From positions 19,021-83,020 of the forward strand of contig NZ_CAIUXT010000120.1 in NCBI RefSeq assembly GCF_903903185.1: a stretch of DNA of 64,000 bases, given 5' to 3'. How positions within the stretch are numbered: position 1 is the first letter of the stretch; the number at the start of each line of letters is the position of its first letter. Below the pieces are notes generated by a model, which was not told the DNA's origin, ran no database searches, and saw nothing but the letters and a program-made list of their open reading frames with translations. Made by a program: the position numbers and the translations under genes. Source of the DNA: an uncultured Rhodoblastus sp. Its GTDB lineage: Bacteria; Pseudomonadota; Alphaproteobacteria; Rhizobiales; Beijerinckiaceae. This document shows positions 5,560 to 57,617 of the stretch, piece by piece.

Positions 5560-5586
5560 TCCGCGAGCGCCGCTATAAATTGCAAG

Positions 5587-7521: not shown

Positions 7522-7669
7522 AGCGATCCGGCAGCCATCCGTCTCCTTGCATTTTCCCGGCGGCAGGACCGTCTTTGCTGCCCGTTGCGCGGTGAACGCG
7601 GCATAGCCGGCGAGGCTCGCGAAGGACGGCGACGACCGCCGCAAGCGCCAGCCGCGCGCGCCGCCCGCC

Positions 7670-9292: not shown

Positions 9293-9453
9293 GTTTTTGT
9301 TCCGGGCTTTGGCGAAGGCGGATCATTCGCCGCCATTTGCGATTTTTTTTCGACGCAAAAGCGCCGTTACCGATTTGCAAGGCGCTTTTGCTGGACGGGG
9401 GCGGCAATCGCCGACATGGTCGGCGCGACCGCTGCACTCGAAAAGGCGCCCGC

Positions 9454-10383: not shown

Positions 10384-11570
10384 ACCGACGCCGGATTCTG
10401 GCCAGCCTGCTGCTGTGCGCCCTGGCCTTGAAGGCTCGCGCACAGGAGGCGGGCGAGTTCGGCAAATTTGTCGAAAGCTTGCGGGCTCCGGCGCGCGACG
10501 CCGGCGTGCCGGACGCGATTTTCGACTCCGTTGCATCGAGCCTCGCGCTCGATCCCTCGCTGACCGGCAAGCGCGCCAGCCAGGGCGAATTCGTCGTGCC
10601 GCTGAAAACCTATGTCGAGGGGGCGGCCAATCCCGTCCGCGTCGCCAAGGGACAGGCCATGCGCGACAAGTTTTCCGCGCCCCTGCGGCAGATCGCGAAA
10701 AAATATGGCGTTGCGCCGGAAATAGTGGTGGCGCTCTGGGGCATGGAGAGCGATTTCGGCGCATCGCGCGGCGACCGCGACATTTTCCGCGCGCTGGCGA
10801 CGCTGGCCTTCCTCCATCGCGACAATCCGGTCTATGCGCAGGAATTCGTCGCCGGCCTCGCGCTGCTGCAAAAAGGCGTCGCGCGCGAGAAATTGCGCGG
10901 TTCATGGGCCGGCGCGATGGGCGATCCGCAGTTCATGCCCTCGGCCTATCTCAAATATGCCGTGCGTTTTACCGGCGACGGCCCGCCGGAAATCTGGAGC
11001 AGCGGCCCGGATTCGCTCGCCTCCATCGGCAATTTCCTCAAACAATCCGGCTGGCGGCCCGGCCTGAAGCCGGTAATCGAGACGCGCGTTCCGGCAGGCT
11101 TCGACTATGCGACGCTGCGACAGGATCTTGCCGGCTGGGCCCGCGCCGGTTTCAAGCCATTGGACGGCGCCGCCTTGCCGCAAGGCGGGGAGGCCATGCT
11201 GTTTTTCCCGGCCGGCGCGCAAGCAAACAATTCCGCCCCGGCCTTTTTGCTCAGCGAAAATTTCTTCGTGCTCAAAGCCTATAATTTTTCCGATTCCTAC
11301 GCTTTCGGCGCCGCAACCCTGGCCGAGAAAATCGCCGGGCGGCCGGTTTTGCGCGAGAACTGGCCAGCGGAAGCGCAGCCTTTGACCCAAGCCGAGCGCG
11401 AGGCGATCCAGCGCGGACTGAGCGCGGCGGGGTTTTATGACGGCAAGATCGACGGGCGTTTCGGGCCGGTGACGCGGCTCGCCATTCACGCCTTCCAGCG
11501 CAAGGCCGGGATCGCCAAGGCCGACGGCTATCCTTCGCGCGCGGTTCTGGAGGCGCTGCGGCGAAACTGA
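10380..11570 (+). CDS. lytic murein transglycosylase, MltB-like, with peptidoglycan-binding domain
   Basis: A 396-residue periplasmic enzyme cleaving the MurNAc-GlcNAc bond of peptidoglycan with 1,6-anhydro product formation. A signal peptide covers about residues 1-21 (LLLCALALKARAQ). The SLT_2/MltB catalytic domain contains VVALWGMESDFGASRGD with the catalytic Glu, and GSWAGAMGDPQFMPSAYLKYA. The C-terminal PG_binding_1 domain reads QRGLSAAGFYDGKIDGRFGPVTRLAI. The start overlaps the EamA stop (ATGA). A strong hairpin lies just after the stop codon. Confidence 0.93.
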   Translation: MNRRRILASLLLCALALKARAQEAGEFGKFVESLRAPARDAGVPDAIFDSVASSLALDPSLTGKRASQGEFVVPLKTYVEGAANPVRVAKGQAMRDKFSAPLRQIAKKYGVAPEIVVALWGMESDFGASRGDRDIFRALATLAFLHRDNPVYAQEFVAGLALLQKGVAREKLRGSWAGAMGDPQFMPSAYLKYAVRFTGDGPPEIWSSGPDSLASIGNFLKQSGWRPGLKPVIETRVPAGFDYATLRQDLAGWARAGFKPLDGAALPQGGEAMLFFPAGAQANNSAPAFLLSENFFVLKAYNFSDSYAFGAATLAEKIAGRPVLRENWPAEAQPLTQAEREAIQRGLSAAGFYDGKIDGRFGPVTRLAIHAFQRKAGIAKADGYPSRAVLEALRRN

Positions 11571-38975: not shown

Positions 38976-39253
38976 GAGCACGCGACTAACTTTCCGTTCG
39001 AGAACGTTGGAGAGCGAGGAATCTCCTCAAAATTGATTGGCGCTGGGCAAGTTTGCTCTCAGAATATCCGCACCTCGTTCTCCCAAATTGCTTGCTCAAA
39101 CCAGAGCGCGACGACGGCCGCCGTCGATCGCCGGCAGTCGCCGCAGCGCGAACTCGCGAGGCTCCTCGGCCGCACGTCCGGCTTGCGCGAAATGGCAAAA
39201 TGGCGCAGCTTATTTATTAATTTGAAACAATTCGATCAGGGTCCATTTTGACC

Positions 39254-42200
39254 ATGGCGCGTCTTTTCATCAGTCATTCAAGCTGGAACAACGACAAAGC
39301 CGTCGAGGTCCGCGACTGGCTCGCCAAAAATGGCTGGCAGGACGTCTTCCTCGATCTCGATCCGGAGCGCGGCATTGTCGCGGGCCAGCGCTGGAGGGAG
39401 GCGCTGCAGAAAGCCGCCTGGCGCTGCGAAGTCGTCCTTGCGCTGGTCTCGAAGGAATGGCTCGATTCGTTCATGTGCCGGTCAGAGGTCGAGACCGCGC
39501 GCCTGATGGGCAAGAAGGTGATCGTGGCGCTTGTCGGGATCGACAAAGCCCAGGTCCCGCCTGACCTCACCGACGAACAATTCATCGATCTGACCGGCGA
39601 CCCGGACGCCTACCGGCGCCTCAAGGAAGGGTTGAAGCGCGCAGGCCTAGACCCGACGAGCTTCCCCTTCCCGCCCGATCGGCGTCCATACCCCGGGTTC
39701 GCTTATTTTGAAGAGCAGGACGCCGCCGTCTATTTCGGCCGTGACGCACAGAACGTGCGCGGCCTCGACGACATGCGCAGGCTCGCCCGCACCGGCGTCA
39801 CGCGCATGTCCGTCATTCTGGGCGCCTCGGGATCGGGCAAGTCGTCCTTCCTGCGCGCCGGCCTGTGGCCGCGCCTGAAGCGTGACGACCGCGCGTGGCT
39901 GCCGTTGCCGATCGTCCGGCCCGAGCGCGCGGCGATCTCGGGGGCCTATGGTCTTGCCGCAGCGCTCTGCCAGATCGCCGGCGATCCCCGGTTTTCCGGC
40001 GGCATGCGCCAGCGCGGCCTGCCCCGCAGCCGCATTGACATCCAGGACGCCCTCGAAAAGACGGACGACGAACTCGCCAAGTTGCTCGCCGCCCTGCGCG
40101 ACATCGCGCAGGCGAGTTTTGCCGGCGAGGATGCGCGGCCGCCGACGGTCCTGCTCGCCATCGACCAGGGCGAGGAATTGTTCAACGAGGAGGGCCGCGA
40201 AGAGGCGAAGCGCCTGATCGACCTGCTGACGAAGACGCTGGCCGCCGACCCGCGCACGATGGCGGTCCTGGTCATGCGGTCGGACGCGTTTCCTCTGGTC
40301 CAGAGCGACCCCGCGCTCGCCGCCCTGCCGAAGGACACGTTCACCCTCGACATGATGCTGGAAGGCTCCTTCCGCGCGGTGATCGAAGGCCCGGCGCGGC
40401 TCGTCGAGCCGCCGCTCAAGATCGACGCGCAGCTCACGGACGCGCTGCTGGAGGACATTTCCGGGCAGGACGCCTTGCCGCTGCTCGCCTTCACCCTCGC
40501 CCATCTCTATGACAACACCCGCGCGGACAACGCGCTGACCCTGGACGGCTATGAAAAAATCGGGCGCGTGGAAGGGGTGATCGACAAGACGGTCGCGCAA
40601 GCCTTCGCGGAGGCGGTCGCAAGACGCGAGGCGCCCGAGGAAACGGAGGAGCAGCTCAAGCTCGCGCGCTCGGCCTTCATTCCGCATCTGGCGCAGGTCA
40701 ACCCCGTCAACCCCGCAGGCCAGTTCGCGCGCCGCGTGGCGCCGCGCGAAAAGATTCCGGAGGAGGCGCGGTCGCTGATCGACCGCTTTGCCGAGCAGCG
40801 CCTGCTGATCAGGGACCGCCGGAAGGACGCCGACGGGAAGGATGTCGACGTCTTCGAAGTCGCGCATGAGGCGCTGTTACGCCAGCCGCCATTCGCCGAA
40901 TGGTTGGAGGATGATCGTGACTTCCTCGTCTGGCGCGAGAGGCTGAGCCAAGCTCGCACGGCCTTCGCCGCCAATCAGCGCGGTCTGCTGGCGGACCGCG
41001 AGCTTTCGATCGCGCGCGACTACCTGCAAACCCGCACCGAGCGCGAGTTCGAACCGGCCGATCTCGCCTTCATCCGCGACAGCATCGCCGACGACGACAA
41101 GCGGCGTGCGGATGAGGCCGAAGAGCAACGAAAAAGGGAAGCCGCCGAGAAGGAAGAGCAGGAGCGACGCATTCGAGACGCGGAGCGAATCGCTGAGGAG
41201 CAGACCAAGGCGGCGGCCGCCCAAAAGCAGGTCGCGGAGGAGCAGACGAAGGCGAACGCTGCGCAAAAACGCACCAATCGGGCGGTTCAGGCGGGATTGG
41301 CGGCGGCCCTGGTGATCGCTGCATTGGCAGGATGGCAGTATTTCGTTGCCAATGCGGCAAAGAAAGAAGCCCAAGCCAGCGCGGAGCGAGAAAAGGCTAG
41401 CGCCGATCAGGCCAAGGCAAACTTACGCGAGGCGCAGATCACGCAATCGCGCTACCTCGCCGATCAGGCGCGCCAGCGCCGCGAGGCGGGCGATGTCGGG
41501 AGCGCAGCCCTGCTTGCGCTCGAGGCTCTGCCGGATGCTGCCGCCGGGACGCCGCAGCCCTATGTCCCCGAGGCCGAGTTGCAGCTCGACGTCACCTGGC
41601 GCGATCTGCGCGAGCGCTTCCTTGTGGGCCATGAAGAGCGGGTGTGGAGCGCGGCATTCAGCCCCGACGGCCAGCACATTGTCACCGCGTCTGACGACAA
41701 GACGGCGCGGGTTTGGGACGCAGCGAGCGGCAAGCCGATCGGAGCGCCGCTCAAAGGCCATGAGGATGTCGTGCGGAGCGCGGCATTCAGCCCCGACGGC
41801 AAGCGGATCGTCACTGCGTCCTCCGACCAGACGGCGCGGGTGTGGGACGCGGCGACCGGGAAGCCGATCGGCGAGCCGCTCAGAGGGCATGATGGATTGG
41901 TCTATCGCGCGGCGTTCAGCCCCGACGGCCAGCGCATTGTCACCGCGTCGTCCGACAAGACGGCGCGGGTTTGGGACGCGGAGAGCAGGAAGCCGAACGG
42001 CGATCCGCTCGGAGGCCATGAGGATGTCGTGTGGAGCGCGGCGTTCAGCCCGGACGGTCAGCGAATCGTCACCGCGTCTTGGGACAGGACGGCGCGGGTG
42101 TGGGACGCGGCGAGCGGGAAGCCGATCGCCAAGCCGCTAAGTGGCCATGAGGGTGAGGCGAATAGCGCGGCGTTCAGTCCCGACGGCAAGCGCATCGTCA

Positions 42201-43336
42201 CCGCGTCTTGGGACAAGACGGCGCGGGTGTGGGACGCGGCGAGCGGCAAGGCGATCGGCGAGCCACTTAGAGGCCATGAACGTGAGTTGACGAGCGCGGC
42301 GTTCGACCCCAACGGCAAGCGCATCGTCACAGCGTCTAATGATGGCAAGGCGCGGGTGTGGGACGCCGCGAGCGGCGATCCAATCGGCGAGCCGCTCGAA
42401 GGCCATGAAGGGGAGGTGCGGAGCGCGGCGTTCAGCCCCGACGGCCAGCGCATCGTCACCGCATCTTTCGACCTGACGGCGCGGGTGTGGGACGCAGCGA
42501 CCAGGAAGGCGATCGGCGAGCCGCTCAGAGGCCACAAGAGCGTGCTGCAAAGCGCGGCGTTCAGCCCCGACGGCCAGCGCATTCTCACCGCGTCTTCGGA
42601 CGGAACGGCGCGGGTGTGGGACGCGGCGAGCGGCAAGCCAATCGGCGAGCCGCTCGAAGGCCACAAAAATACGGTATTGAGCGCGGAGTTCAGTCCCGAC
42701 GGCCAGCGCATCGTCACTGCGTCTTGGGACGGCACGGCGAGGGTGTGGGACGCGGCGAGCAGGAAGCCAATCGGCGAGTTCAAGAGCCACAATTCATTGT
42801 TGAGCGCGGCTTTCAGCCCCGACGGCAAGCGTATCGTGACCGCATCCAAGGACTGGACGGCGCAGGTGTGGGATGCGGCGAGTGGGAAGCCCATCGGCGA
42901 GCCGCTGAAAGGCCATGACGGTCGGGTGTATCGCGCGGCGTTCAGCGCCGACGGCAAGCGCATTGTCACAGCGTCTGCGGACAACACGGCGCGCGTGTGG
43001 GATGCGGCGAGCGGGAAGGCGATCGGCGAACTAAAAGGCCATGAAGGTGCGGTGGCAAGTGCGGCGTTCAGCCACGACGGCAAGCGCATTGTCACCGCGT
43101 CCGATGACAAGACGGCGCGAGTGTGGGACGTCTTTCCCGACACCCAGGCGCTCGTGTCCCAAGCAAAGAAGGACGTCCCGCGCTGCCTGACGCGCGCGCA
43201 GCGCAAGACCTTCTTCCTGTCCCCCGAACCGCCGGCCTGGTGCGTCGAAATGGAAAAGTGGCCCTACGCCACGCCCGTATGGAAACGATGGCTCGCCGAA
43301 AAGCCCGCCGGCAAGAACCCGCCGTTGCCCCCTTAG
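39254..43336 (+). CDS. TIR-STAND NTPase-WD40 sensor/effector protein
   Basis: A 1360-residue signalling protein. An N-terminal TIR domain spans about residues 2-130 (RLFISHSSWNNDKAVEVRDWL, with the likely NADase Glu in FMCRSEVETA). The STAND NTPase (nSTAND1-like) has Walker A LGASGSGKSS and Walker B LLAIDQGEELF. A long charged coiled coil surrounds one membrane helix (~residues 678-699, AALVIAALAGWQYFV). Twelve WD40 repeats run from residue ~793 and a ~66-residue tail closes the protein. WD40 probably senses and the NTPase oligomerises to drive TIR NAD cleavage, as in known defence NLR-like proteins. A TTG six bases earlier with AGGG is an alternative start. Confidence 0.9.
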   Translation: MARLFISHSSWNNDKAVEVRDWLAKNGWQDVFLDLDPERGIVAGQRWREALQKAAWRCEVVLALVSKEWLDSFMCRSEVETARLMGKKVIVALVGIDKAQVPPDLTDEQFIDLTGDPDAYRRLKEGLKRAGLDPTSFPFPPDRRPYPGFAYFEEQDAAVYFGRDAQNVRGLDDMRRLARTGVTRMSVILGASGSGKSSFLRAGLWPRLKRDDRAWLPLPIVRPERAAISGAYGLAAALCQIAGDPRFSGGMRQRGLPRSRIDIQDALEKTDDELAKLLAALRDIAQASFAGEDARPPTVLLAIDQGEELFNEEGREEAKRLIDLLTKTLAADPRTMAVLVMRSDAFPLVQSDPALAALPKDTFTLDMMLEGSFRAVIEGPARLVEPPLKIDAQLTDALLEDISGQDALPLLAFTLAHLYDNTRADNALTLDGYEKIGRVEGVIDKTVAQAFAEAVARREAPEETEEQLKLARSAFIPHLAQVNPVNPAGQFARRVAPREKIPEEARSLIDRFAEQRLLIRDRRKDADGKDVDVFEVAHEALLRQPPFAEWLEDDRDFLVWRERLSQARTAFAANQRGLLADRELSIARDYLQTRTEREFEPADLAFIRDSIADDDKRRADEAEEQRKREAAEKEEQERRIRDAERIAEEQTKAAAAQKQVAEEQTKANAAQKRTNRAVQAGLAAALVIAALAGWQYFVANAAKKEAQASAEREKASADQAKANLREAQITQSRYLADQARQRREAGDVGSAALLALEALPDAAAGTPQPYVPEAELQLDVTWRDLRERFLVGHEERVWSAAFSPDGQHIVTASDDKTARVWDAASGKPIGAPLKGHEDVVRSAAFSPDGKRIVTASSDQTARVWDAATGKPIGEPLRGHDGLVYRAAFSPDGQRIVTASSDKTARVWDAESRKPNGDPLGGHEDVVWSAAFSPDGQRIVTASWDRTARVWDAASGKPIAKPLSGHEGEANSAAFSPDGKRIVTASWDKTARVWDAASGKAIGEPLRGHERELTSAAFDPNGKRIVTASNDGKARVWDAASGDPIGEPLEGHEGEVRSAAFSPDGQRIVTASFDLTARVWDAATRKAIGEPLRGHKSVLQSAAFSPDGQRILTASSDGTARVWDAASGKPIGEPLEGHKNTVLSAEFSPDGQRIVTASWDGTARVWDAASRKPIGEFKSHNSLLSAAFSPDGKRIVTASKDWTAQVWDAASGKPIGEPLKGHDGRVYRAAFSADGKRIVTASADNTARVWDAASGKAIGELKGHEGAVASAAFSHDGKRIVTASDDKTARVWDVFPDTQALVSQAKKDVPRCLTRAQRKTFFLSPEPPAWCVEMEKWPYATPVWKRWLAEKPAGKNPPLPP
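41630..43130 (+). repeat. 12 near-identical ~129-bp tandem coding repeats (WD40)
   Basis: Twelve in-frame units of 42-43 codons. Each unit reads H-xxxx-SAAFSPDGKRIVTAS-xDx-TARVWDAASGKPIGEPLxG. Units are almost identical except at the residues after the leading His and just after TAS. Nucleotide identity is visibly high, so this is recent tandem duplication or gene conversion. It is not a CRISPR array. Confidence 0.97.
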
Positions 43337-43450: not shown

Positions 43451-45655
43451 ATGGACAAGCTCGAAAAAGCGAGACGTTTGAAAGCAATGCTGTCCCAGAT
43501 CGCGCCGGGGAGCGCGCTTGAAAACCTCGCGCCGCCGAGAGACGGCCTGGAGAGCATGGCGGAAGCCGCAGACGACGTCCACGCGAAGATCAACAGCGGA
43601 CTGGAGAAGCTCGACGACGATCGCCATCAGGATATCTCGAACGAAGAAATGTTCGGCCTTGAGGCCATTGTCATGAAGCAAAACCGGCCCGCGGTCTTCG
43701 TTCGTCGCGGCACATACGATCCCCTGACCGACAACGCGTGGCTAAAGCTCAACGACCGGGCGGTGAGGGAGCGGATCAATCCGCTGCTGCCGCTGATCGG
43801 GCGCATCGAATTGCCGCCGCCCGGAATTCCGCCCTATGTCGGCACCGGCTTTATCGTCGGACCCGGCCTGATGATGACCAACCGACACGTCGCGCGCCTT
43901 TTCGCCGATGGCCTCGGCGTCAATATCCGCTTCACGCCGGGCGACGCTTTCGTGAATTTCGGTCGCGAGGTGGATGACGTCGACGATGGTCTCGTCCACG
44001 ATCTCAAAGTTTCGGGCGTCGCAATGGTGCATCCCTATTGGGACATGGCGCTGCTCAAAGTCGACGGGCTGCCGAACGGCCAGTCCTTGCCGCTTTCAAT
44101 CCAAAAGCCGGAAGACCTCATCGACGAGGACGTTGTTGTCATCGGCTATCCGGCGCGGGATGAACGCAACGATCTGGCGGTGCAGGACCGGATTTTCGAA
44201 GGCAAATATTTTGTGAAGCGTCTGGCGCCGGGCGTCGTGCGCGAGCGCGCCTCGATCCAGAGCTTCGAAAACAAGGTGAATGCGCTAACGCATAATGCGT
44301 CGACGCTTGGCGGCAACTCCGGCTCGGCGGTGATCGGCGTCAAGTCCGGCAAGGTGATCGCGCTGCATTTCGCCGGCGTCTACCTCGTCGCCAATTATGC
44401 GGTGCCAATGCATGAACTGGCGCGCGACAGCCGATTGGCAAAGCTCAATTTCGATGGTTCGGTTCCGAAGACGTCCGACTGGGACGCCGCCTGGAATTCA
44501 ACGGAAAAAGTCGCCGTTCCGGTAGCCGGGCCCGTTTCCCAAGCGCCCATCCTGCAAAATGTCGCGCCGTCGGCTAAACCGCCAACTTCCCTGAGCCGTA
44601 AGGCGGCGGGCGAGGCGAAATGGACGATCCCGATCCATATCAGCATTTCGGTGGGCGAACCAACGCAAGGCCCGGCAATCCCGGAATCGAAAGACTCCGT
44701 CGAAGCGGAAGCCGAACTCGATGCAGCGGTCGAAGGCGTCGTCGTCGACCAGGATTACAGCGACCGGCCGGGTTACGACCCCGACTTCCTCGATGGCGTT
44801 TCCGTCCCGCTGCCCGCGCTCAAACCGGAGATGGAGAAGGACACGGCCGTCGTGCCCGAAGAATACCGCATGCACGACGATCCCTATGAACTCGCCTATT
44901 ACCATTATAGTCTTTACATGAACAAGCGGCGGCGGACGGCCTGGTTCTCCGCGGCCAATGTCGACGGAGACCGCCGTCCCGGAATCGGCAAGCGAGAGGG
45001 AGACCGCTGGTATGTCGACACGCGCATCGGCAAGACGGAACAATTGGGACAGGCGGCCTTCGAGCATGGCATCGACCGCGGCCATCTCACCCGGCGGGAC
45101 GATACGGCGTGGGGCGACGACGTCGAAAGCGCCATCAAGGCCAACAACGACACCTTCCATTTCACCAATTGCGCGCTACAGGCGTCGCCCTTCAATCGCG
45201 GCAAGGACCGCTGGCAAGGCCTGGAGCAATTCCTTCTTGAGAAGCACGCGAAGAAGGACCAGCGGCGCATGATCGTCATAACCGGGCCGATCTTCTCTCC
45301 CAACGATCCCGCCTATCAAAACGAAAAAATGAAATATTCGGTGCTTTGCCCGCTCCAGTTCTGGAAGGTTTGCGTCCTCGTGCGCAAAGACGGATCGCCT
45401 TCGGCGACAGCCTTCGTTCTCGGGCAAAGCGACATTCGTGATCTGCCCGGCTTCGAGGCTGTCTTTGACGTCGCCGCCACCCAGATCACGGTCGAGGATC
45501 TCGAGAACAAGACCGGGCTGGATTTCGGCGACATCAAGCAGCACGACCATTTTGCCGAGGGCGGCAAGCCCGGAACGCTGGAACTTCCCGCAGCGGCGGG
45601 AGGGAAACCGCGCAAAGCGAAAATCATTCGCGACGGCGCGGATATCGTCGTTTGA
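43451..45655 (+). CDS. trypsin-like protease fused to DNA/RNA non-specific endonuclease (NUC1/EndoG type)
   Basis: A 734-residue fusion. An N-terminal coiled segment leads to a module FGLEAIVMKQNRPAVFVRRGTYDP. A V8/trypsin-like domain follows with His in MTNRHVARL, Asp in HPYWDMALLKVD and Ser in LGGNSGSAVIG. After a Pro/Glu-rich linker comes a NUC-family nuclease with DRGHLTRRDDTAWG (catalytic His) and the metal-binding Asn region FHFTNCALQASPFNRG. There is no signal peptide, so it acts in the cytosol unless exported otherwise. GGGAG precedes the ATG. The protease may release or control the nuclease; this is inference. Confidence 0.9.
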   Translation: MDKLEKARRLKAMLSQIAPGSALENLAPPRDGLESMAEAADDVHAKINSGLEKLDDDRHQDISNEEMFGLEAIVMKQNRPAVFVRRGTYDPLTDNAWLKLNDRAVRERINPLLPLIGRIELPPPGIPPYVGTGFIVGPGLMMTNRHVARLFADGLGVNIRFTPGDAFVNFGREVDDVDDGLVHDLKVSGVAMVHPYWDMALLKVDGLPNGQSLPLSIQKPEDLIDEDVVVIGYPARDERNDLAVQDRIFEGKYFVKRLAPGVVRERASIQSFENKVNALTHNASTLGGNSGSAVIGVKSGKVIALHFAGVYLVANYAVPMHELARDSRLAKLNFDGSVPKTSDWDAAWNSTEKVAVPVAGPVSQAPILQNVAPSAKPPTSLSRKAAGEAKWTIPIHISISVGEPTQGPAIPESKDSVEAEAELDAAVEGVVVDQDYSDRPGYDPDFLDGVSVPLPALKPEMEKDTAVVPEEYRMHDDPYELAYYHYSLYMNKRRRTAWFSAANVDGDRRPGIGKREGDRWYVDTRIGKTEQLGQAAFEHGIDRGHLTRRDDTAWGDDVESAIKANNDTFHFTNCALQASPFNRGKDRWQGLEQFLLEKHAKKDQRRMIVITGPIFSPNDPAYQNEKMKYSVLCPLQFWKVCVLVRKDGSPSATAFVLGQSDIRDLPGFEAVFDVAATQITVEDLENKTGLDFGDIKQHDHFAEGGKPGTLELPAAAGGKPRKAKIIRDGADIVV

Positions 45656-47349: not shown

Positions 47350-50300
47350 TTAGCCTTGGATCGGCGTTTTCAGAAGGGCCTCGATCGCCATCAACGGGAC
47401 GCCAAACCCGAGCTTCTTTGTACCGCCCTCGTATTTGCCGCTGTGGTGGATGCCGATCGCCTCGCCGGTCGCGAGGTCGACGATCGGTCCACCCGCAACA
47501 CCGGCCATGGTCCAGCACTCGTAGATGAGCCTGGTATTCTCCACCGCAACAATAACTCCAGGCATGATCATCTTTTCGCCGGTTGGGTAGGTCGCGAACG
47601 CCGCCAGCGTGACGATCGTCGGCGTGAACGTTATCAGCGGATGACCAATCACGGCGATTCGTGTTCCCACCTCCGGCAGCGTCCAGCGGAGCTTCAACGG
47701 ATCCTGCCCGGCCGGCTCGATCCGCGCCAGCGCGCCGTGGCGGTCGTCGCTTGTGGTTCCGATGACCTCTTCGATGACCACGCGTTTCTCGCCGAACACC
47801 GCGAACCGCGGCTTCTGGTTCATCACGAAGTCGGTCGACGCGAGCGCGCGCGGTCCGATCAGGAAGCCCGTCCCGATGAAGGGCTTGTCGGGCTCCGACT
47901 CGATCCGCGCCGTGGCGTTCGCCGCAGGGAGCAGCGGCGCCGCCCACGCCGGTGCGTTGCGCACCGGGAACGCCTTCGAAATCACGGCCTGGCCGCGCGT
48001 GTCGAACGTTGTCCATAGTCCGCCGGTGAAGGGCTCCGGAGCGAGCGGCGGCGGCATGTCCTGTTTGGCGAAGTGTTCGACCAGCCATGCCTCCATCATC
48101 CGATAGCCCTCGCCGACGACCGGAACCGACGCGCTCTTGACCGCGAGCTCCATGTTTTTGTCGCGCTCTCCGATGCAGGCGGCGAGCACATGCACGTCGG
48201 CGAGTCCGGCCGGTCCGATCCTCTTCACGACGGCGTCGAGTTCCGGCCAGCGACTCTCGAGCGCGAGCCGGTAGCCCAGTACGGCGAGGCTGAGCGGATC
48301 GAGGTCGCGTGCAAGCAGGCGCGCGGCCTCGTCGTCGTACAGCGGCGTGCGCGCATCGAGACCGCGCCAATTCTGTTCGACGAGGCGGATTGTGTCGTCG
48401 AAGGGCGCCTGCGCCTCCAGCCGCTGGAGGTAGCGGTGGATCTCCGTGAGCTGCGTCGACTCGCGCACGATCACGATCGTCCACACGTGATCGGCGACGA
48501 ACGGCAGCGGGATGCGCTTCGGGTCGAGCCCGCCGGTCTGCACGGTGAGGCTCGTGCCATATTGCACCGGCGCATGCCATTGCACCGCAAATCCGTCGAG
48601 CGCCGGTAAGGGTTTTGGCGCCACAGGCTGCCGATTCATGTCGAGGACGAGCGTCTCGATCGGTCCGGCCTGCGGATTCTCCCCGTTCGGGCGCGCATCG
48701 CCGACGAGAAGGCGCACGAAGCATTGCCCCGGGACCGGCGGGAGGGGCTCGACGCCAAGTTCGCGCAACCTCCTGCCGTCCCCGACGGCGGGGAACTGCG
48801 CCGCCCAGGCCGCCCACGCGAGCAGCGAGCCGAGGTGCGTCGTCGTCACGACTCCGAACATCGCGGAGGGTTCCGACACGCCGTCATGTGGCGCGATGAC
48901 GCCCGCGCTCGGCGGCAGCCGTTGCGTGAGCTGCGGGTCGGGCTGGACGTCGATCACCACCGGCTCGTCGGCGGTCACGAGCACCGACCGCACGATCGGC
49001 CGCTCGGTCGGCAGCGCGATCTCGACGCGGCATGAGCCCACCGGCAGCGTCTTTTCGAGCCGCCCCCAGGCCGCCTCGACGCGCTTCCCGGCGGCGTCGA
49101 ACACCTCGATGCGCGCGTAGCGGTCGCGCGTCCGCACGATCAGTTGGCCGTGCTTCCCCGCCCCGAGCTCGGCGCCATCGGGCGGCGTGGGCGGCGGCGC
49201 GCCGATGCGTCCGGCGCCATCAGGACGCGTGGGCAGAGGCGCGCCGATGCTTTCGACCTGGATCATCGACTCGAGCCCGTCGAGCTTGATTTCGAATCCC
49301 CTGTCGGGAAAGGCTTTCGGCAGTGGCACGAGGTCTGCGTGCAGCTCGACCGGCCCGACGACTTCGACCTTCTTTGACCAATTCTCGAACCCGCTCGCCT
49401 CGATCTCGATCTTGTAGACCGTTGACGACAGCTTCCACTCGATCGGCACGGCAAGCGGCGATGGCTTCTCCGCCTGGCGCTCCCAGACCCCCTTCCACTC
49501 GTTGTAGCCGCGAATGCCGGCCGTAGCGAAAGCCGTCGCTTCTTCGGGCTCGACAAATACCTTGACGGGCGAGCGTGGCTTTTCAGCAAAGCGCGCGAGT
49601 TCGAGTGAGCTCTGTACGCGGAACAGGCTCTCCGCCGGCTCCTGCGTCGGGAGAGTCTTGTTCGCGCGGCGCGCCTCCTCCGACCGCTCTTGAATCCGGC
49701 GCTTCGCGTATTCGGCGAGTCGGCCGAACGTCAGCACAAACTCTTCCTTGACCGCGTCGGCCTCGAGCACGGGCCCCGCACCGTTCAGGCCGTCAATCAG
49801 CGCGCCGCCGAACAGGCCATGCAGACCCTGCTCGTTTGCGAGCTGGCCCGCTGTGGTTGCAAACAGCACCGCCTGCCGCGCCTGGGCTTCGGGTTTCACC
49901 TTCGAGAGGTCGAAGAACAGCGTCCTCGTCGCGGTGACGACATCCTCGCTGACAACGATGCCGCGACAGGCGTCGACGAAGTACACCTGATACTCCGGAG
50001 AGCAAACCTGCATTTCGCGGATCCACGAGCCGAGGTCGATCGGGTTCGAGCGGTAGTAGTCGAGGTCCGTGACGTCCGCTGGCACGATCACAGGCGCCTC
50101 GTCGGGCCCGCCGCCCGAGGGCGCGATGCCGTGACCTGCGTAGAAGAACCAAAGCCGCTGCGCGCCGGCGCCATTCTTCTTGTGATCGAACAGCGCGCGC
50201 CGGATCGCAGTATCTGTCGCCACGTCGTACCTGGCGTCGTTGACCGGGCGATCGGGATGGGGCGACAGCAAGAGGGTCAGAGTCGCCTCGGTTGCGCGGC

Positions 50301-50418
50301 CGGCGCCGGGCGCCGTTACCCACTTCGCAAAGGCGAGCGCGTCGCGCACCGCCGCGCGGAGTTCCCACGCCGGGGCGTGATAGGCGTCGAGGCCTATGAT
50401 CAGCGCGCGATCGTTCAT
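47350..50418 (-). CDS. caspase-like protease with C-terminal degenerate trypsin-like domain
   Basis: A 1022-residue protein. The N-terminal C14 caspase/metacaspase domain has His ~96 in FFYAGHGIAP and Cys ~151 in VYFVDACRGI. The middle ~550 residues are beta-rich, including a PEGA-like segment. The C-terminal ~190 residues align with trypsin-like domains (IGTGFLIGPRALASTDFV and AGVAGGPIVD), but the His is Asp, the Asp is Gly and the Ser is Ala, so it should be inactive. The start at 50418 overlaps the trypsin stop by ATGA. No signal peptide is visible. It probably acts as a regulated protease whose dead domain docks a partner or substrate. Confidence 0.88.
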   Translation of the reverse strand: MNDRALIIGLDAYHAPAWELRAAVRDALAFAKWVTAPGAGRATEATLTLLLSPHPDRPVNDARYDVATDTAIRRALFDHKKNGAGAQRLWFFYAGHGIAPSGGGPDEAPVIVPADVTDLDYYRSNPIDLGSWIREMQVCSPEYQVYFVDACRGIVVSEDVVTATRTLFFDLSKVKPEAQARQAVLFATTAGQLANEQGLHGLFGGALIDGLNGAGPVLEADAVKEEFVLTFGRLAEYAKRRIQERSEEARRANKTLPTQEPAESLFRVQSSLELARFAEKPRSPVKVFVEPEEATAFATAGIRGYNEWKGVWERQAEKPSPLAVPIEWKLSSTVYKIEIEASGFENWSKKVEVVGPVELHADLVPLPKAFPDRGFEIKLDGLESMIQVESIGAPLPTRPDGAGRIGAPPPTPPDGAELGAGKHGQLIVRTRDRYARIEVFDAAGKRVEAAWGRLEKTLPVGSCRVEIALPTERPIVRSVLVTADEPVVIDVQPDPQLTQRLPPSAGVIAPHDGVSEPSAMFGVVTTTHLGSLLAWAAWAAQFPAVGDGRRLRELGVEPLPPVPGQCFVRLLVGDARPNGENPQAGPIETLVLDMNRQPVAPKPLPALDGFAVQWHAPVQYGTSLTVQTGGLDPKRIPLPFVADHVWTIVIVRESTQLTEIHRYLQRLEAQAPFDDTIRLVEQNWRGLDARTPLYDDEAARLLARDLDPLSLAVLGYRLALESRWPELDAVVKRIGPAGLADVHVLAACIGERDKNMELAVKSASVPVVGEGYRMMEAWLVEHFAKQDMPPPLAPEPFTGGLWTTFDTRGQAVISKAFPVRNAPAWAAPLLPAANATARIESEPDKPFIGTGFLIGPRALASTDFVMNQKPRFAVFGEKRVVIEEVIGTTSDDRHGALARIEPAGQDPLKLRWTLPEVGTRIAVIGHPLITFTPTIVTLAAFATYPTGEKMIMPGVIVAVENTRLIYECWTMAGVAGGPIVDLATGEAIGIHHSGKYEGGTKKLGFGVPLMAIEALLKTPIQG

Positions 50419-51518
50419 GATGCGAATGTGATCCCGTTGTCGGCGAAGAACGGCTCGTCCTTTACGAGCCACAGCGGAATGGCGTAGTTTGCGACGCCAT
50501 ACAGGCCGCTGTAGTGGAGCGCCACGACGTGATGGTTGTCGAAATCGACGACTGGCGAGCCCGAGCTACCGCCGAGCGTGGAGCTGTCGTGACTCCCTCG
50601 CGGCTTGTTCGCGGCGATCGGCAGGCTGTCGACGATCGCGACAAGCTGCCCCGGCGAAACGCGCTTGAGGCCGCTCGACTTCGCGTCCGGGAACAGGAGC
50701 TTCGCCACCTCTGGCGACACCCCCTGCGGCGGATTCACGGCGGGATAGCCGGCGACATAGACCTCATGCCGTTCGAGCGCCGCCGGCGGCGAGGCGCGCA
50801 TACGCAGCGCCAAGCCCTTGCTGTTCGCGATGCCGGTGACATCGAGCAGCGCCATGTCAAGGAGCGGGTGGTGCGCACGGATCTTCGTGATCGTCCCTGT
50901 GGTGGCGCTCGCGGCGCCAGGCGCCTCCGCCGGGTCCCAGACGGGGCGCTTCGAGGGGTCCTTGTCCCACTGCGCGTTGGTCGCGACGACCGCCGACGGC
51001 AGCTTGTCGAGCCAAGTAGGATCGCTGTGGGGCTTGAGACCGCACAATACTCCCACGACGTGGCGGTTCGTGAGCAGCAGGTTCTCGGCCGCGAACCAGC
51101 CGGTGCCGACGTGCCGCCGCTCGCTGGCGTCGATGCGCCCGACACCGCGAATCTTGCGGATCACCGACTCATGCGCGGTTTTCAGTCGTTCCCACGAAAT
51201 CGGAATCGCCGGGATCGCATCCTCGACGACGCGCAGCGCTGGCCGCGCGAGCAGATGCACGAAGGCATGAAGCGCCTGCGTCTGCTCGGTAGTCAGCGCT
51301 GCCTTCGGATTCTTCTTGAGCGCAGCGGCCGAGGCCTGCGCAACCGCGAACTGTTTCCTCAACTCGGGATCGTCGCCGGGATCGCCGACAAAGCCGGTTT
51401 CGACGGGTGCGCGGCTTCTCGTGAGACCGAGCAATACGGCTGTCGGGTCGTCGCCCAGAATTTCGTCGAGTTGTTGCAGCGGCGGCAGCACCGATGCGAG
51501 CCACTCCTGTTCCTGCAT
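50415..51518 (-). CDS. trypsin-like serine protease with helical N-terminal domain
   Basis: A 367-residue protein. The helical N-terminal ~120 residues have no motif I recognise and may be an adaptor of the effector-associated type. A V8/trypsin-like domain follows with His in LLLTNRHVVG, Asp in HPLLDMALLDV and Ser in TLGGSSGSPVVD, so the triad is complete. AGGAG precedes the ATG. The stop overlaps the caspase start, implying fixed stoichiometry. It may cleave and activate the caspase, or sense through its N-terminus; both are inference. No signal peptide. Confidence 0.9.
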   Translation of the reverse strand: MQEQEWLASVLPPLQQLDEILGDDPTAVLLGLTRSRAPVETGFVGDPGDDPELRKQFAVAQASAAALKKNPKAALTTEQTQALHAFVHLLARPALRVVEDAIPAIPISWERLKTAHESVIRKIRGVGRIDASERRHVGTGWFAAENLLLTNRHVVGVLCGLKPHSDPTWLDKLPSAVVATNAQWDKDPSKRPVWDPAEAPGAASATTGTITKIRAHHPLLDMALLDVTGIANSKGLALRMRASPPAALERHEVYVAGYPAVNPPQGVSPEVAKLLFPDAKSSGLKRVSPGQLVAIVDSLPIAANKPRGSHDSSTLGGSSGSPVVDFDNHHVVALHYSGLYGVANYAIPLWLVKDEPFFADNGITFAS

Positions 51519-51745: not shown

Positions 51746-52870
51746 TCAAAAGCTGCTGCGTTCGTCGGAGAGTTGGCCCTCCTTCACCTTTTTGGAAATA
51801 CGGCCGGCTCGATCTGCGGACGCCGTCATGTTCGTTTTTTCGCGCAGCGCGAGGTAGTTCGCGATCATTGTCCGTTCATCGGCCGTCGTCCATGCCGCAG
51901 GGTCCGGTTTGCCGGATGAGGCGATGCACTTCACGATCGCCTGCGACAACGTGCCGGGCACATGGCCGGGACGATTCACGTGCTCGTCGAGGAGGTGGGC
52001 GACGCCGACCTGCGAGGTCACATAAGCCGACACCGGTCTGTTCAATTTCGGAATCGGCCTTTTGTAGAACGCGTCGATCCGGGCGATGGCCAGTTGCGCC
52101 TGTGCGCGCCGCACGTCCGGATGGTGCGCCGCGCGCCAGAAACGATAAGCCCAGATGTTCTTGCGCATAGCCAACTTGCTGGATGGATTGTCCAGCATCT
52201 TGCCGTTGAGGCTGATGAAGCCCGTTGAGAGGCCGGCCGTCTTCAGCGCCGGGACATCGAGCCCGTACTTGCCGAAAAGCTCCGCGAAGGTCGCCGGCGT
52301 CTGGCGCTTGACGATGCTCAGCAGGTTGGCCAGTTCGCCGGCCGCCGAATCGGCGCCGAGCGTCCATTGGTAGACGCCGCATGACAGGAACGCATTGTCG
52401 TAAGTGTTGATCGCTTCGATATTCCCTTCGTTTTCCGACACCGCGCACATGACCGCGACAACGCTCGGCTTCAATCCGGGAAACGCGGCCGGATCCTGCT
52501 GGAAGAAGGCCGCGAGGCCGGTCCGCCCATATTGAACCAGCCCGGCCTTGTAGAGAATGCCAAACTCAACGCCTCCCGGCCCGAGCACCTTCTTGCCATT
52601 CGTCGCGATGTCGCTTTCTTTGGCCTCGGGAGGAATCTTCGGCGTTTCGACGACGGCTTCGAGGCCGGCCCCGGTTTGATTCTCGGACGAAATCGACCCG
52701 ACGACGCGACGCGCGAGCACTCCCGTGACGCCTTCGTGTTCGACGACGACCCAAATGGAGACGCGACCAAGGATGCAAACGGCATCGCCACGCTTCAGCG
52801 TGCGGAGCGTGACGCCGCCCGGTCCGTCGAGGAGAGTCGCCGATTTTGTAATCACGCGAGCGGTTTGCAT
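51746..52870 (-). CDS. SH3-like domain plus lysozyme-fold peptidoglycan hydrolase-like protein
   Basis: A 374-residue protein. The N-terminal SH3b-like region reads KSATLLDGPGGVTLRTLKRGDAVCILGR. The C-terminal domain has VVAVMCAVSENEGNIEAINTYDNAFLSCGVYQWTLG, like lysozyme-superfamily domains of phage or toxin muramidases. The Glu in SENEG is the likely catalytic acid. There is no signal peptide. AGGAG precedes the ATG. Family assignment is by remembered motif, so the reaction is likely but unproven. Confidence 0.65.
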   Translation of the reverse strand: MQTARVITKSATLLDGPGGVTLRTLKRGDAVCILGRVSIWVVVEHEGVTGVLARRVVGSISSENQTGAGLEAVVETPKIPPEAKESDIATNGKKVLGPGGVEFGILYKAGLVQYGRTGLAAFFQQDPAAFPGLKPSVVAVMCAVSENEGNIEAINTYDNAFLSCGVYQWTLGADSAAGELANLLSIVKRQTPATFAELFGKYGLDVPALKTAGLSTGFISLNGKMLDNPSSKLAMRKNIWAYRFWRAAHHPDVRRAQAQLAIARIDAFYKRPIPKLNRPVSAYVTSQVGVAHLLDEHVNRPGHVPGTLSQAIVKCIASSGKPDPAAWTTADERTMIANYLALREKTNMTASADRAGRISKKVKEGQLSDERSSF

Positions 52871-53070: not shown

Positions 53071-53604
53071 TCACGGGCCGTTCGCATCGTCGTTGTCCTT
53101 CGCATCGACGTGCACGGTCCGCGGCGCAACAATCCCGCTCGCCAGCGACGCGGCGCCAAGGACGATGCTCGCCAGATCGCCGTCGTAGGGAACGAACTTC
53201 GTGGCTCCGACGCCTTCCACCGCATAGGCCCATACCGGGAACAGCAGCGTCGCCATCGTCGCGTTGAGTCCCCATGCGTCTCCCGGCCTGCTCAAACGCC
53301 ACAGGTAAATCGGCGTGAAAAGCCAGGCGAGAAGGAAAACGACAAAGCCGATCGAAGCGACCTCAATCCCCGCCATCGTCGGCGGCGTCGCATGCATCGA
53401 TTGCTTCAATATCGAATTCGCGAAGATGAAAAAGGCGACGATCTCGGCGGGGACGTATTTGGCGACGCGATCCAGATAGGTATCGCCCTGATCTGCAAGC
53501 GTCTTCTGCGCCGGCGGCGGCTCATTGCCTTCGGTCGACTCGAGGCCCTCTCCTCCAGCTTGAACATTTTTCGTTATAATGAGTGGTCTGACCAAACGGC
53601 CCAT
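53071..53604 (-). CDS. polytopic membrane protein of unknown function
   Basis: About 177 residues with a soluble N-terminus and four likely helices: VPAEIVAFFIFANSIL, IGFVVFLLAWLFTPIYLW, ATLLFPVWAYAVEGVG and DLASIVLGAASLASGIVA. The segment TYLDRVAKYVPAEIVAFF is distinctive and reminds me of small membrane proteins in other accessory regions, without a known function. The start is uncertain; ATG 53604 is the best candidate. Its place among wall and membrane hydrolases suggests a pore-like effector or an anchoring partner, both speculative. Confidence 0.55.
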   Translation of the reverse strand: MGRLVRPLIITKNVQAGGEGLESTEGNEPPPAQKTLADQGDTYLDRVAKYVPAEIVAFFIFANSILKQSMHATPPTMAGIEVASIGFVVFLLAWLFTPIYLWRLSRPGDAWGLNATMATLLFPVWAYAVEGVGATKFVPYDGDLASIVLGAASLASGIVAPRTVHVDAKDNDDANGP

Positions 53605-54226
53605 GTCCAGAGCGCTCCAATAAAGACCGATCAATAAATATGTCCCATGATGCGTCTCGCGGTTTAGCCCCGTCAAGAGTTAAGGGTGTCTCAGCGTCGA
53701 ATTCGAGCGCCTCGGGTGTTCGAGAACGCAGCGGCATGCTGAAACGAGCCGCTTCGACAAAGAGCAGATGTCGATACGCGCGAAGACGTCATTCGCGCCG
53801 GTGTGGCTTGCGCAACTCGCCTGTGAAGCCGATAACGCCGCAGCGTTTGCGAAGGACCGGGGACTTGTCCTGCCGCCGAGCGGAGCCATCGCAGCGCGGC
53901 CCGATCCGCCGCTTCCGATCGCAAAAGCCGTCGCGGTGGTCGCGGTCGAGAGCGGTTGCGTTTCGTCGCGTTCGCCGGCGCGGACCCTTGTGCTTGCGGA
54001 CTGGATCGCGGATTTCGACATCGCGCCTCGCGCCGCCTCAACCGAAGGATTGCGGATACGATCGAACATCCCGACACGAGCGCGCCGCAAGTCCAGGCCG
54101 CACGCCCGTGGTTCAGCCGACCTGCGCCGGCAGACCTGATGCTCGACATGTTTCCGGACGAAATCGGGGCACAGCTTCAGGACAGCTAAATCGCCGCCCT
54201 GAAGTGAGGGTCGCGCGTCGACGCAA
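53605..54226. other. region without a supported gene; possible decayed ORF
   Basis: About 620 bp. Several frames are open but none has both a ribosome site and a recognised fold. The plus frame from 53768 (SIRAKTSFAPVWLAQLACEAD) and another plus frame ending ADLMLDMFPDEIGAQLQDS at ~54189 might be pieces of one frameshifted gene. I cannot assign it. Confidence 0.3.
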
Positions 54227-54847
54227 TCAGGGCTTAAGCAAATAGACCGAAGCCTTGGCCTGCCAGCCCCGGGAAGTCCAGGGTCTTTCGTCGGGTCCGA
54301 CGCCGCCGTGCGACTCCAGCGTCTTCCCGTTGTGTATCAGGACGACATGGCCAATGCCCTCCGACGAATCCGACGGGCTGAGGAAGGCGATACGAACGGC
54401 GCCGTCCGGAGCCGAGCCCGTCGCGCGATTGACCTGCTTGAAATCGCGCGACTCGATCCATTCGTGCTGCACGACGGAGCCGTCGGGAAAACTGTTGCCG
54501 AGGTTGGTGGAGCGCCGGATCGCTTCTCGCACGAAGCCGCTGCAGTCGACCGCCTTGAAATCGACGCCCGGCGCTCCGTTGAACGGCGCCTTTGCGCCGA
54601 GCCCATATTTGACGCGCGGATGGGCATTCATGCAGGCGACGAGAAAATTGTGCGCCTTGCCGATGTCGATCTGCAATTGCGCGGGATGGCCGAGGTCTTC
54701 GAACGCCTCAACCCCCGGCGGGACGTCGCCAGAACCGTCGCTGCCGAAATTGGCGCGCTGCAATGCCTCTGCATTCAGTTCCACCGGCGCCTGAGGCGCG
54801 CCAGGGTCCAGGTCTTCGATCCCGCCGAGATTATTCGTATCGACCAT
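54227..54847 (-). CDS. NlpC/P60-like cysteine peptidase
   Basis: A 206-residue protein from the ATG at 54847, with GGGAGG upstream. The papain-like NlpC/P60 core has Cys in FKAVDCSGFVREAI and the catalytic His in GIGHVVLIHNGKTLESHGG. Such enzymes cut gamma-D-Glu to diaminopimelate bonds in peptidoglycan stems. The N-terminal ~70 residues are acidic and Pro-rich, without a signal peptide. It is divergent from the metallophosphatase across ~280 bp, which must carry both promoters. An amidase or deamidase role of the same fold is possible. Confidence 0.75.
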   Translation of the reverse strand: MVDTNNLGGIEDLDPGAPQAPVELNAEALQRANFGSDGSGDVPPGVEAFEDLGHPAQLQIDIGKAHNFLVACMNAHPRVKYGLGAKAPFNGAPGVDFKAVDCSGFVREAIRRSTNLGNSFPDGSVVQHEWIESRDFKQVNRATGSAPDGAVRIAFLSPSDSSEGIGHVVLIHNGKTLESHGGVGPDERPWTSRGWQAKASVYLLKP

Positions 54848-55127
54848 CGACGCCTCCCATGCTGCTGAAATCAGATTCCCCGTCATCCCCGGCGGCGTTT
54901 CGCGATCCCGGTCACAAGCAATGCACTGCCTTTGCAGGGGCGGAGCAAGGGCCCGGCCCGTTTCGCAGTTCGCCGTCGCGGTTTTCCGTTGTGAGCCGAC
55001 TACCGGCTCATGCCCCCCGGCTTCTGCCCGGGGCGCCTATTCGCTGCTTGAAAAAAATGAATTCCGAAATCTATAATGGCTTCGTTTACGCCGTCTGGCA
55101 ATATGTGTTGACTCAAGGGAAAGCCCC

Positions 55128-56396
55128 ATGGCCGGTTCAATCGAAAACGGCAAGGCCTCGCGCATCGTTACAATGAATTCCTTGCCGGACCTCGCGAAGT
55201 CAGGTCTCGAAGCGGCGCAGTCGAGCGACGAGCGCGAGACGGCGGAACGTTATCAGACGGCGGTCGAAAAGCTGCAGCAGGAAGCCGACAAGGCTGGAAG
55301 CAGCGGCGTTTTTGTCGCGGTCGAAGACCGCGACGCGTCTCTCGTCCAGAGCGCGGTCGCGCAGGCGGCGGCAGGGCATTCGCCGCTCGCCGCCGGCGGA
55401 CTCGAAGCGCAATTCGGCGATGGGCCGACCGGCGGCGACGTTTGGGGCTGGATCAAGAGTCTGTGGGATCACGTCCCGGCCAGTGCGCGGCATGCGATCG
55501 TACGACCGCCGGACACGAAGGCCGGAGCGTTTCCCGATAAGGGCGCCATCGCCATCCTGGGAGACTGGGGAACGAATCTCTACGGCGCGCCGGTTTCCGC
55601 TGCATCGATCAGCAAGACGGGCGGCTATGAGATGGCGCTGCACCTCGGCGACATCTATTATTCGGGCACGCCCGAAGAGACGAAGCAGCGCTTCCTCGAT
55701 GTCTGGCCGGGCGACGCCGCGCAGGTCAGCCGCGCGATCAACGGCAATCACGAGATGTACTCGGGCGGTTACGCCTATTTCGATCAAATCCTGCCGGCCT
55801 TCAGCCAGGCTTCGAGCTATTTCGCGGTTCAAAACGAGCACTGGCTGCTCGTCGGGCTCGACACCGCATGCACGGACTGCGCGCTCGACGCCGAACAGGT
55901 GCGATGGCTGGAGACGGTGTTGGGCGCGCGCGGCGATCGCAAAACGATCCTGTTCTCCCATCACCAGCCGTTCTCCCGGCTGGAATCGAAACAGAACCCC
56001 GCGATTGGGAAAGCGCTCGCGGGACTGTTCGCGAAAAAGGCGATCACGGCCTGGTATTGGGGTCACGAACATGCGTGCGTGCTCTACGACCGGCACCCGA
56101 CCTTCGATTTCCTCGGCCGCTGTGTCGGCCATGGCGGCATTCCGGCGCCCAGGAAGGGCGAAGTCACCAGCGCGCCGATCGACTCCCGTCCCGACGGCGT
56201 CACCTGGCGGCGCCTCGACTCTTCGGCGGATGCGCCGCAATGCCTCGTGCTCGACGGACGCAATCCCTACGTCAAGGGCGAAGAGGACAAGTTCGGCCCG
56301 CATGGCTATCTGACGCTCGCGTTCGACGGGCCGAAGCTGGTCGAACGCATTCACCTGCCGGATGGAACGGAGATTTTCAGCGGCCCCGTGCCTTGA
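55128..56396 (+). CDS. calcineurin-like metallophosphatase with N-terminal extension
   Basis: A 422-residue protein. The N-terminal ~140 residues are helical (AERYQTAVEKLQQEADKAGS) and unassigned. The metallophos core follows with AILGDWGTN, LHLGDIYYSG, NGNHEMY, FSHHQPFS and WGHEH, giving the full dinuclear metal ligand set. The substrate could be phosphomonoester, phosphodiester or nucleotide. There is no signal peptide. AAGGG precedes the ATG. A trypsin-like gene starts 36 bp after its stop, so they form a pair. Confidence 0.88.
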   Translation: MAGSIENGKASRIVTMNSLPDLAKSGLEAAQSSDERETAERYQTAVEKLQQEADKAGSSGVFVAVEDRDASLVQSAVAQAAAGHSPLAAGGLEAQFGDGPTGGDVWGWIKSLWDHVPASARHAIVRPPDTKAGAFPDKGAIAILGDWGTNLYGAPVSAASISKTGGYEMALHLGDIYYSGTPEETKQRFLDVWPGDAAQVSRAINGNHEMYSGGYAYFDQILPAFSQASSYFAVQNEHWLLVGLDTACTDCALDAEQVRWLETVLGARGDRKTILFSHHQPFSRLESKQNPAIGKALAGLFAKKAITAWYWGHEHACVLYDRHPTFDFLGRCVGHGGIPAPRKGEVTSAPIDSRPDGVTWRRLDSSADAPQCLVLDGRNPYVKGEEDKFGPHGYLTLAFDGPKLVERIHLPDGTEIFSGPVP

Positions 56397-56432
56397 TCGC
56401 CTGACCCGCACGTTTTTTTGAAGGACGCCTCG

Positions 56433-57617
56433 ATGGACTGGGACAAGAAGATCGATTCTAGCGCCGTGTCGCATTCCCTCTTTCTGGTTCGCGGAAAGAG
56501 CGCGCGGGATGCGTCCGGACTGGAAGGCATCGAAGAAGCCGCTCCTCTCGTTCTCTCGGATGAGGAGCGGATCGAACGCCTCGAAGCGGCGCTCGCGGCG
56601 GAACGCGAATCCAATCCCGGCCAGGACAGGGCTGCGCAAGACTCGAGGATCGTCGCGAGCGCGCGACAGGCGCTCGCGAAATCCGGTCAGGGAGAGCCGC
56701 TGCAGAATTTCACGGTTGGCGACAACGTCGGCCTCGAGTCGGTGATTCTCACCGACGGCACGCGCCCGAGCCTGTTCATCCAGGAAGGCTTCGTCGACGT
56801 CGACGGGGCGGACATCGGCGACTGGGGCATGGGCCTCTCGCGTTTTGAGCCGCAGATCCGCAAGGTCGTCGCGTCGGTGGGGCGGATCGATATTCCGCAA
56901 CAGCCCTGGTTCGAAGGCACCTGCTTCGTCGTCGCGGAGGGGCTCGTCTTGACCAACCGCCACGTGCTCGAGACGATCGCCGCTCCGAACGAAGCGGGCG
57001 GCTGGATCCTGAAATGGCCCGACCAGACGACGGTCAATTTCTCGGGCGAGTTCGAGTCGGCCCATGCGACCAAGTTCAGGATCGTCGGAGTCGCCTTCGC
57101 GGGTCCGGACGCGATCAACAGGACGGTCGACTTCACGCATCTCGACATTGCGATTCTCAAGGTCGACCCAGGCAGCGATCCCGGGAATGTCTTTCCCCCG
57201 GCCGTCACTTTCGAGAAGGATTCGGCCCTGCCGAAGCGCGATCGCAATCTCTACGTGCTCGGATTTCCCGGCCAGCCTTACGTCTGGCGGCTGCCCGGCG
57301 CGCCCGGTCCGGGAAGCGAAACCGCGCAGGTCATCGCCGACACGTTCAAGAGCCGGTTCGGCTACAAGCGCCTCGCGCCGGGCGCCCTTGTGGCCGGCCC
57401 GGGGGAGGTCCTGAACGACGCGAAGAAATGGATCCTCGCGCATGACGCGTCAACGCTCGGCGGCAATTCGGGATCCTGCGTCGTCGACTTGGGCGTCGAC
57501 GGTTTCCGCATTCTGGGGTTGCACTTTGCCGGCGCGAGCCGGCAGCAGAACTGGGCTCATGTCATGGGCGCGATCAAGGACCAACTCGCCGCCTGTTCGG
57601 CGACGTTCGTCGCCTGA
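56433..57617 (+). CDS. trypsin-like serine protease with shared GLES/RPSLF module
   Basis: A 394-residue protein from the ATG at 56433 (AAGGA upstream; the ORF track uses a TTG). An acidic coiled N-terminus leads to VGLESVILTDGTRPSLFIQEG, like the module in the trypsin-nuclease at 43451. The V8/trypsin-like domain has His in LTNRHVLET, Asp in THLDIAILKVD and Ser in LGGNSGSCVVD. There is no signal peptide. A further small ORF with AGGAAG begins 15 bp after its stop. It probably acts on or with the upstream phosphatase. Confidence 0.88.
   Translation: MDWDKKIDSSAVSHSLFLVRGKSARDASGLEGIEEAAPLVLSDEERIERLEAALAAERESNPGQDRAAQDSRIVASARQALAKSGQGEPLQNFTVGDNVGLESVILTDGTRPSLFIQEGFVDVDGADIGDWGMGLSRFEPQIRKVVASVGRIDIPQQPWFEGTCFVVAEGLVLTNRHVLETIAAPNEAGGWILKWPDQTTVNFSGEFESAHATKFRIVGVAFAGPDAINRTVDFTHLDIAILKVDPGSDPGNVFPPAVTFEKDSALPKRDRNLYVLGFPGQPYVWRLPGAPGPGSETAQVIADTFKSRFGYKRLAPGALVAGPGEVLNDAKKWILAHDASTLGGNSGSCVVDLGVDGFRILGLHFAGASRQQNWAHVMGAIKDQLAACSATFVA

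Follow-up and report, generated by a model that had tools for sequence, protein, structure and literature searches.

Bacterial conflict systems in which proteases and nucleases act together have been described in several forms, three of which lie close to the locus considered here. For the NucA-trypsin systems designated System 3, a proteolytic-cascade logic has been proposed, with EAD1 adaptor domains present in a subset, and the same work proposes that the catalysis-less trypsin domains of another system bind peptides or regulate in a dominant-negative manner (Kaur et al. 2020, PMC7159879). In Canu (caspase-nuclease), an antiphage system, a caspase complex activates a nuclease (Tuck et al. 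2025, PMC12799240), and in the CARD-NLR-like LypABC system of Caulobacter, the LypC peptidase is described as essential for host lysis and the endonuclease residues as dispensable (PMC13236601). Here we describe a gene pair from a 64,000-nucleotide stretch of DNA, hereafter the window, of an uncultured Rhodoblastus sp. (contig NZ_CAIUXT010000120.1, positions 19,021 to 83,020), in which an active trypsin-like protease gene is coupled to the gene of a caspase ending in a trypsin-fold domain devoid of a catalytic triad. We tentatively read the dead domain as a binding module.

The coordinates of all features are collected in Table 1. Both genes of the pair lie on the minus strand and share the sequence ATGA at 50418-50415, which holds the TGA stop of the trypsin gene and the ATG start of the caspase gene; this overlap, reported in the initial annotation, is confirmed and recurs in two orthologous pairs from Devosia. 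Because the ATGA is common to the stop and the start, the caspase start is placed at ATG 50418, correcting the upstream GTG 50472 of the open reading frame (ORF) list. The trypsin consists of an N-terminal region of about 100 residues followed by a Trypsin_2 domain (Pfam E 4.7e-12) with an intact triad, H153/D221/S319. The caspase dyad, formed by H96 (in AGHG) and C151 (in DACR), is likewise intact and is conserved in the aligned relatives. Between the caspase domain and the C-terminal domain, a full-length model of low confidence (mean predicted local distance difference test, pLDDT, 54.6) places a weak PEGA-like beta segment, the Pfam match of which falls below the cut-off, a disordered linker (about 342-420), two beta-sandwich segments and alpha-helical repeats.

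The C-terminal Trypsin_2 match covers all 144 Pfam positions (E 9e-8), weaker than the match of the partner trypsin, and the catalytic columns are occupied by F864 (His), G895 (Asp) and A975 (Ser); in the same alignment, 15 of 15 further trypsin domains, taken from the window's island and related loci, keep H, D and S. The initial annotation, which had read the caspase C-terminus as trypsin-like with all three catalytic positions changed, was thus correct on this point. Across the window protein and its two Devosia orthologs, His is replaced by F, F and V, Asp by G, A and A, and Ser by A, A and G, and since the replacing residues differ, only the absence of catalysis is conserved at the triad. 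None of the three orthologs shares a conserved Ser, Thr or Cys at the oxyanion loop (GVAGGP, GVAGGP and GTGGGP), and a substitute catalytic set was rejected, the conserved C968 column being Cys in several active relatives as well; at the sequence level, therefore, no different set of residues is seen to form a working triad. The structure prediction that had been proposed as a check returned a two-barrel trypsin fold (AlphaFold2, residues 799-1022, 10 aligned sequences; mean pLDDT 85, predicted template modelling score, pTM, 0.87), and a Foldseek comparison of this model with the PDB retrieved SplA, V8/Esp-type and HtrA-type serine proteases (best E 5e-12, SplA; template modelling score of the best match 0.66 by query and 0.73 by target). 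A trypsin fold, a triad lost in all three orthologs, the lack of a conserved replacement nucleophile and purifying selection support the earlier supposition that the domain is a true pseudoprotease. As to its role, the initial annotation had suggested that it may restrain the caspase, dock the active trypsin or be cut by it. Chance is excluded because both orthologous pairs, at 69-72% identity, repeat the overlap as well as the loss of the triad.

Selection on the dead domain was assessed by the Nei-Gojobori method in the three orthologs. Between the window and Devosia, the ratio of nonsynonymous to synonymous substitution rates (dN/dS) comes to 0.20 in each of three domains, the dead one, the active trypsin and the caspase; the two Devosia sequences, compared with each other, give 0.33, 0.26 and 0.24 in that order. 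Because its ratio of about 0.2 equals that of the active trypsin and the caspase, the dead domain is maintained as a non-catalytic domain under purifying selection. A decaying relic of a once-active trypsin domain, which the loss of all three catalytic positions might bring to mind, is contradicted by this result, as well as by a frame open in three genomes and a confident fold, and was rejected as very improbable indeed.

Conservation within the dead domain is uneven: 49% of positions are invariant among the three orthologs in the first barrel (838-905, with the former His and Asp) versus 77% in the second (906-1020; Fisher p 9e-5), a contrast that the barrels of the active trypsin do not show (73% versus 68%, p 0.55). 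The conservation of the second barrel fits a binding surface retained on the predicted module. A purely structural, dimerising or solubilising part of the caspase, with no partner protein of its own, would also combine a conserved fold with absent catalysis, but the contrast between the barrels exceeds what core stability would lead one to expect, and relatives manage without the domain, so that we consider such a role improbable. The same contrast, of a fast-changing first and a conserved second barrel, could instead reflect a contest with invaders if the domain were a substrate, bait or decoy that, on being attacked or bound, would sense a protease (from a phage or a sister protease of the island) or a phage protein directed against proteases. 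The surrounding island, which looks like a conflict system, would suit a bait, but dN/dS is low overall (0.2-0.3) and the three sequences give no sign of positive selection; we hold a bait to be no more credible than a structural part.

Sequence comparison also bears on where the domain came from. It is 19% identical to the operon-partner trypsin and 31% identical to an active trypsin encoded on a Bradyrhizobium plasmid (L024). A maximum-likelihood tree of 18 trypsin domains, the deep branches of which are weakly supported, places the dead domain and the L024 trypsin together. Recent duplication of the partner trypsin was rejected on these grounds, and with 19% identity the idea that the dead domain pairs as a copy of its partner gets no support. 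Caspase homologs in Actinomycetota, Planctomycetota and a cyanobacterial metagenome-assembled genome (MAG) have the caspase, beta and helical parts in common, lack the dead domain and stop at a GGLW segment just before the point at which it begins; because these relatives in other phyla end about there, the dead domain is an add-on to the caspase. A Bradyrhizobium barranii plasmid (L025) has the same beta/helical module with an active trypsin behind it. Several active trypsins of this clan (43451-45655, 56418-57617 and L006) share, ahead of the catalytic domain, a segment such as LEAIV....RPAV.V..G that resembles a prosegment and is missing before the dead domain.

A position at the chain end after helical repeats is common for a removable inhibitor, the domain is separable, to judge from the relatives that end at GGLW, and an active protease is co-translated with it; the dead domain might accordingly pack on the caspase or block its oligomerisation, and the caspase would be freed once the coupled trypsin, or the caspase's own activity, cuts the domain off. 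Relatives with the same caspase core manage without any such domain, however, and the full-length model gives no contact information, and we regard autoinhibition as unlikely.

Table 1. Features of the window, in window coordinates.
Feature	Position	Strand	Basis
Active trypsin-like serine protease, 367 amino acids	50415..51518	-	ORF, ATGA overlap, Pfam Trypsin_2, triad, Devosia orthologs
Caspase-family protein, 1022 amino acids, translationally coupled to the trypsin gene	47350..50418	-	ORF, Pfam, orthologs 69-71% identical
Caspase (C14) domain, residues 1-260	49639..50418	-	Pfam PF00656 Peptidase_C14 E 3.1e-8
Caspase middle region, residues 261-782	48073..49638	-	PEGA E 0.02; secondary structure of low-confidence full-length model; homologous in relatives from other phyla
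Dead trypsin-fold domain, residues 838-1022	47353..47907	-	Pfam Trypsin_2, AlphaFold2 model, Foldseek, alignment with 15 active domains
TIR-nSTAND1-WD40 protein	39248-43336	+	Pfam; TIR domain read from sequence
Trypsin-NucA (Endonuclease_NS) fusion	43451..45655	+	Pfam Endonuclease_NS E 3e-38, Trypsin_2 E 2.6e-14; 1.7 kb from caspase gene
Calcineurin-like phosphoesterase, then active trypsin (56418-57617)	55128-57617	+	Pfam
TPR-S (sensor)-trypsin protein	61760-63382	+	

The close caspase orthologs, found with a four-member caspase alignment, come from Devosia insulae DS-56 (L059) and a Devosia MAG (L060) and are 69-71% identical to the window protein over the full length; both are preceded by a trypsin 72% identical to that of the window, with the identical overlap, so that the ATGA-overlapping pair is kept in three genomic settings. 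Among 136 genomes of the Devosia family, the four-member profile was positive in two, the known ones, and revealed no additional full-length ortholog, and three-member profiles, run against viral contigs and 398 genomes of the order to which the window belongs, found none either. Searches with the window sequence alone gave weak partial matches only, both in 199 genomes of the window's own family and at the level of the class, and a scan of genome-contig proteins with the same single sequence yielded nothing useful, as did a plasmid search for full-length relatives. Because the caspase/trypsin unit is rare and patchy, horizontal spread is suggested.

A wider view of the caspase family is given by 19 loci, the window and G364 included, which were found through the caspase, are not a random sample and include several that are interrelated. 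A protease gene lies immediately upstream of the caspase gene in 12 of these 19, and it encodes a trypsin in four, a zincin in four, a metacaspase-type caspase in three and a CHAT protease, assigned by sequence, in one; in the remaining seven, the upstream position is taken by an alpha/beta hydrolase or an unknown protein, or no gene lies close by. Because the upstream gene is a protease in 12 of the 19 loci, a protease-to-caspase step is suggested. In locus L154 (genome G867, 5474-11504), a zincin gene directly upstream of the caspase gene is followed by the beta/helical module and then by a trypsin-NucA gene, and the order zincin, caspase, beta/helical module is found also in L019, L075 and L025, a recurrent alphaproteobacterial arrangement. 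Upstream of the trypsin gene in the window itself, three further minus-strand genes (51746-52870, 53071-53676 and 54227-54886), two without a Pfam match and one weakly NlpC/P60-like, are possibly additional members of the caspase/trypsin operon.

The pair lies in an island that is probably a conflict system with an antiphage or cell-death function. Besides the proteins of Table 1, it holds a class 3 lipase and an NlpC/P60-like protein (Pfam), and its trypsin domains comprise four active ones (43451, 50415, 56418 and 61760) and the dead one. Homologs of the trypsin-NucA fusion occur in both Devosia genomes, in the MAG on the contig of the pair and about 6 kb away from it, and in D. insulae on a different contig, beside EAD1-lysozyme and EAD1-trypsin genes. 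In Sinorhizobium mexicanum (L022) and in G867 (L154), caspase/beta-helical genes directly adjoin a NucA nuclease gene. The D. insulae locus (genome G957, L162, contig C22, 3287-11697) has EAD1-lysozyme, EAD1-trypsin, EAD1 protein, NucA protein and trypsin-NucA genes in consecutive order, a row that matches the published description of the NucA-trypsin system. In a Pyrinomonadaceae MAG (L120), the gene order is phosphoesterase (44% identical to that of the window), trypsin, caspase. The TIR and TPR-S proteins flank the window's island, and it is conceivable that a nucleotide signal from the former is read by the latter.

The setting fits a NucA-trypsin System 3 island. As System 3 is described by Kaur et al. 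(PMC7159879), the window has an alphaproteobacterial island in which a NucA (Endonuclease_NS) domain and a trypsin-like peptidase are fused (43451-45655), a fusion that is the hallmark of these systems, and several trypsin paralogs lie in the neighbourhood, with a papain-like (NlpC/P60) protein and a STAND NTPase nearby. EAD1 gave no Pfam match in the island proteins scanned in the window; the trypsin-NucA locus of D. insulae does have it. A caspase with a C-terminal dead trypsin domain does not appear in the System 3 section of that work, and the dead trypsins treated there for another system are fused to a vWA component, whereas that of the window is fused to a catalytically intact-looking caspase with an active trypsin as operon partner. 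Canu, as presented in PMC12799240, has a caspase carrying immunoglobulin (Ig)-like/TPR interaction domains, to which the beta-sandwich-like segments that follow the caspase domain in the low-confidence model of the window protein, and its PEGA match below cut-off, may correspond; a protease-triggered nuclease logic and an occurrence in defence islands are further points of likeness. The Canu nuclease, however, has an MBL fold and the sole nuclease detected in the window is NucA-type and trypsin-fused, and a dead trypsin domain is not among the Canu features described there; membership in Canu (CanABC) was rejected, with no MBL family among the Pfam matches of the scanned island proteins. The 43451-45655 protein is a trypsin-endonuclease fusion like LypC, but LypA has CARD, trypsin and ATPase domains, and neither a caspase nor a dead trypsin domain is among the members described (PMC13236601). 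The EACC1 two-gene system (System 4) was likewise rejected, since the gene upstream of the caspase encodes a trypsin and not a single-transmembrane EACC1 protein; the window caspase scores 25.5 bits against the NCBIfam model caspase_w_EACC1, the cut-off of which is 140.

Because the triad is lost while fold and selection are kept, the second barrel is conserved, the ATGA unit is kept and a trypsin-NucA protein co-occurs, we favour, as quite possible though short of probable, a reading that makes the dead domain a module for docking or for peptide binding in a caspase/trypsin relay within a NucA-trypsin-type conflict system. The trypsin and the caspase would then form one protease unit of that system, the caspase carrying interaction domains (beta-sandwiches and helical repeats) and a C-terminal trypsin-fold domain unable to cut, the conserved second barrel of which would recruit a relay partner. 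Candidates for this partner are the trypsin-NucA protein, a cleaved signal peptide and the coupled trypsin itself; its recruitment, once infection is sensed, would bring one protease to the other. Several points weigh against this docking role. The closest relative of the dead domain is an active trypsin from another locus and not the operon partner; the collections searched yielded three orthologs only, two of them from one genus; and the full-length model failed over the C-terminal 230 residues, where any contact of the dead domain with the caspase would lie. A bolder proposal, which we put forward as speculative and rather doubtful, is that the caspase is regulated by a pseudoprotease of a different clan, the dead trypsin sensing or docking the active trypsin or a cleavage product in a two-protease switch through which the caspase would read out trypsin activity; with interchangeable upstream proteases, the pair would exemplify a general design in which a 'plug-in' protease is placed upstream of a caspase.

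Antiphage cell death in bacteria is increasingly seen to be triggered by protease relays, with Canu, the nuclease-protease pairs of Hachiman and AVAST, and LypABC as examples. A conserved dead protease domain inside a caspase, which parallels the regulatory pseudoproteases of animal immunity, offers a concrete way into the wiring and restraint of such relays, and the presence of unrelated proteases in one upstream slot makes the question of whether the upstream protease drives the caspase directly testable.

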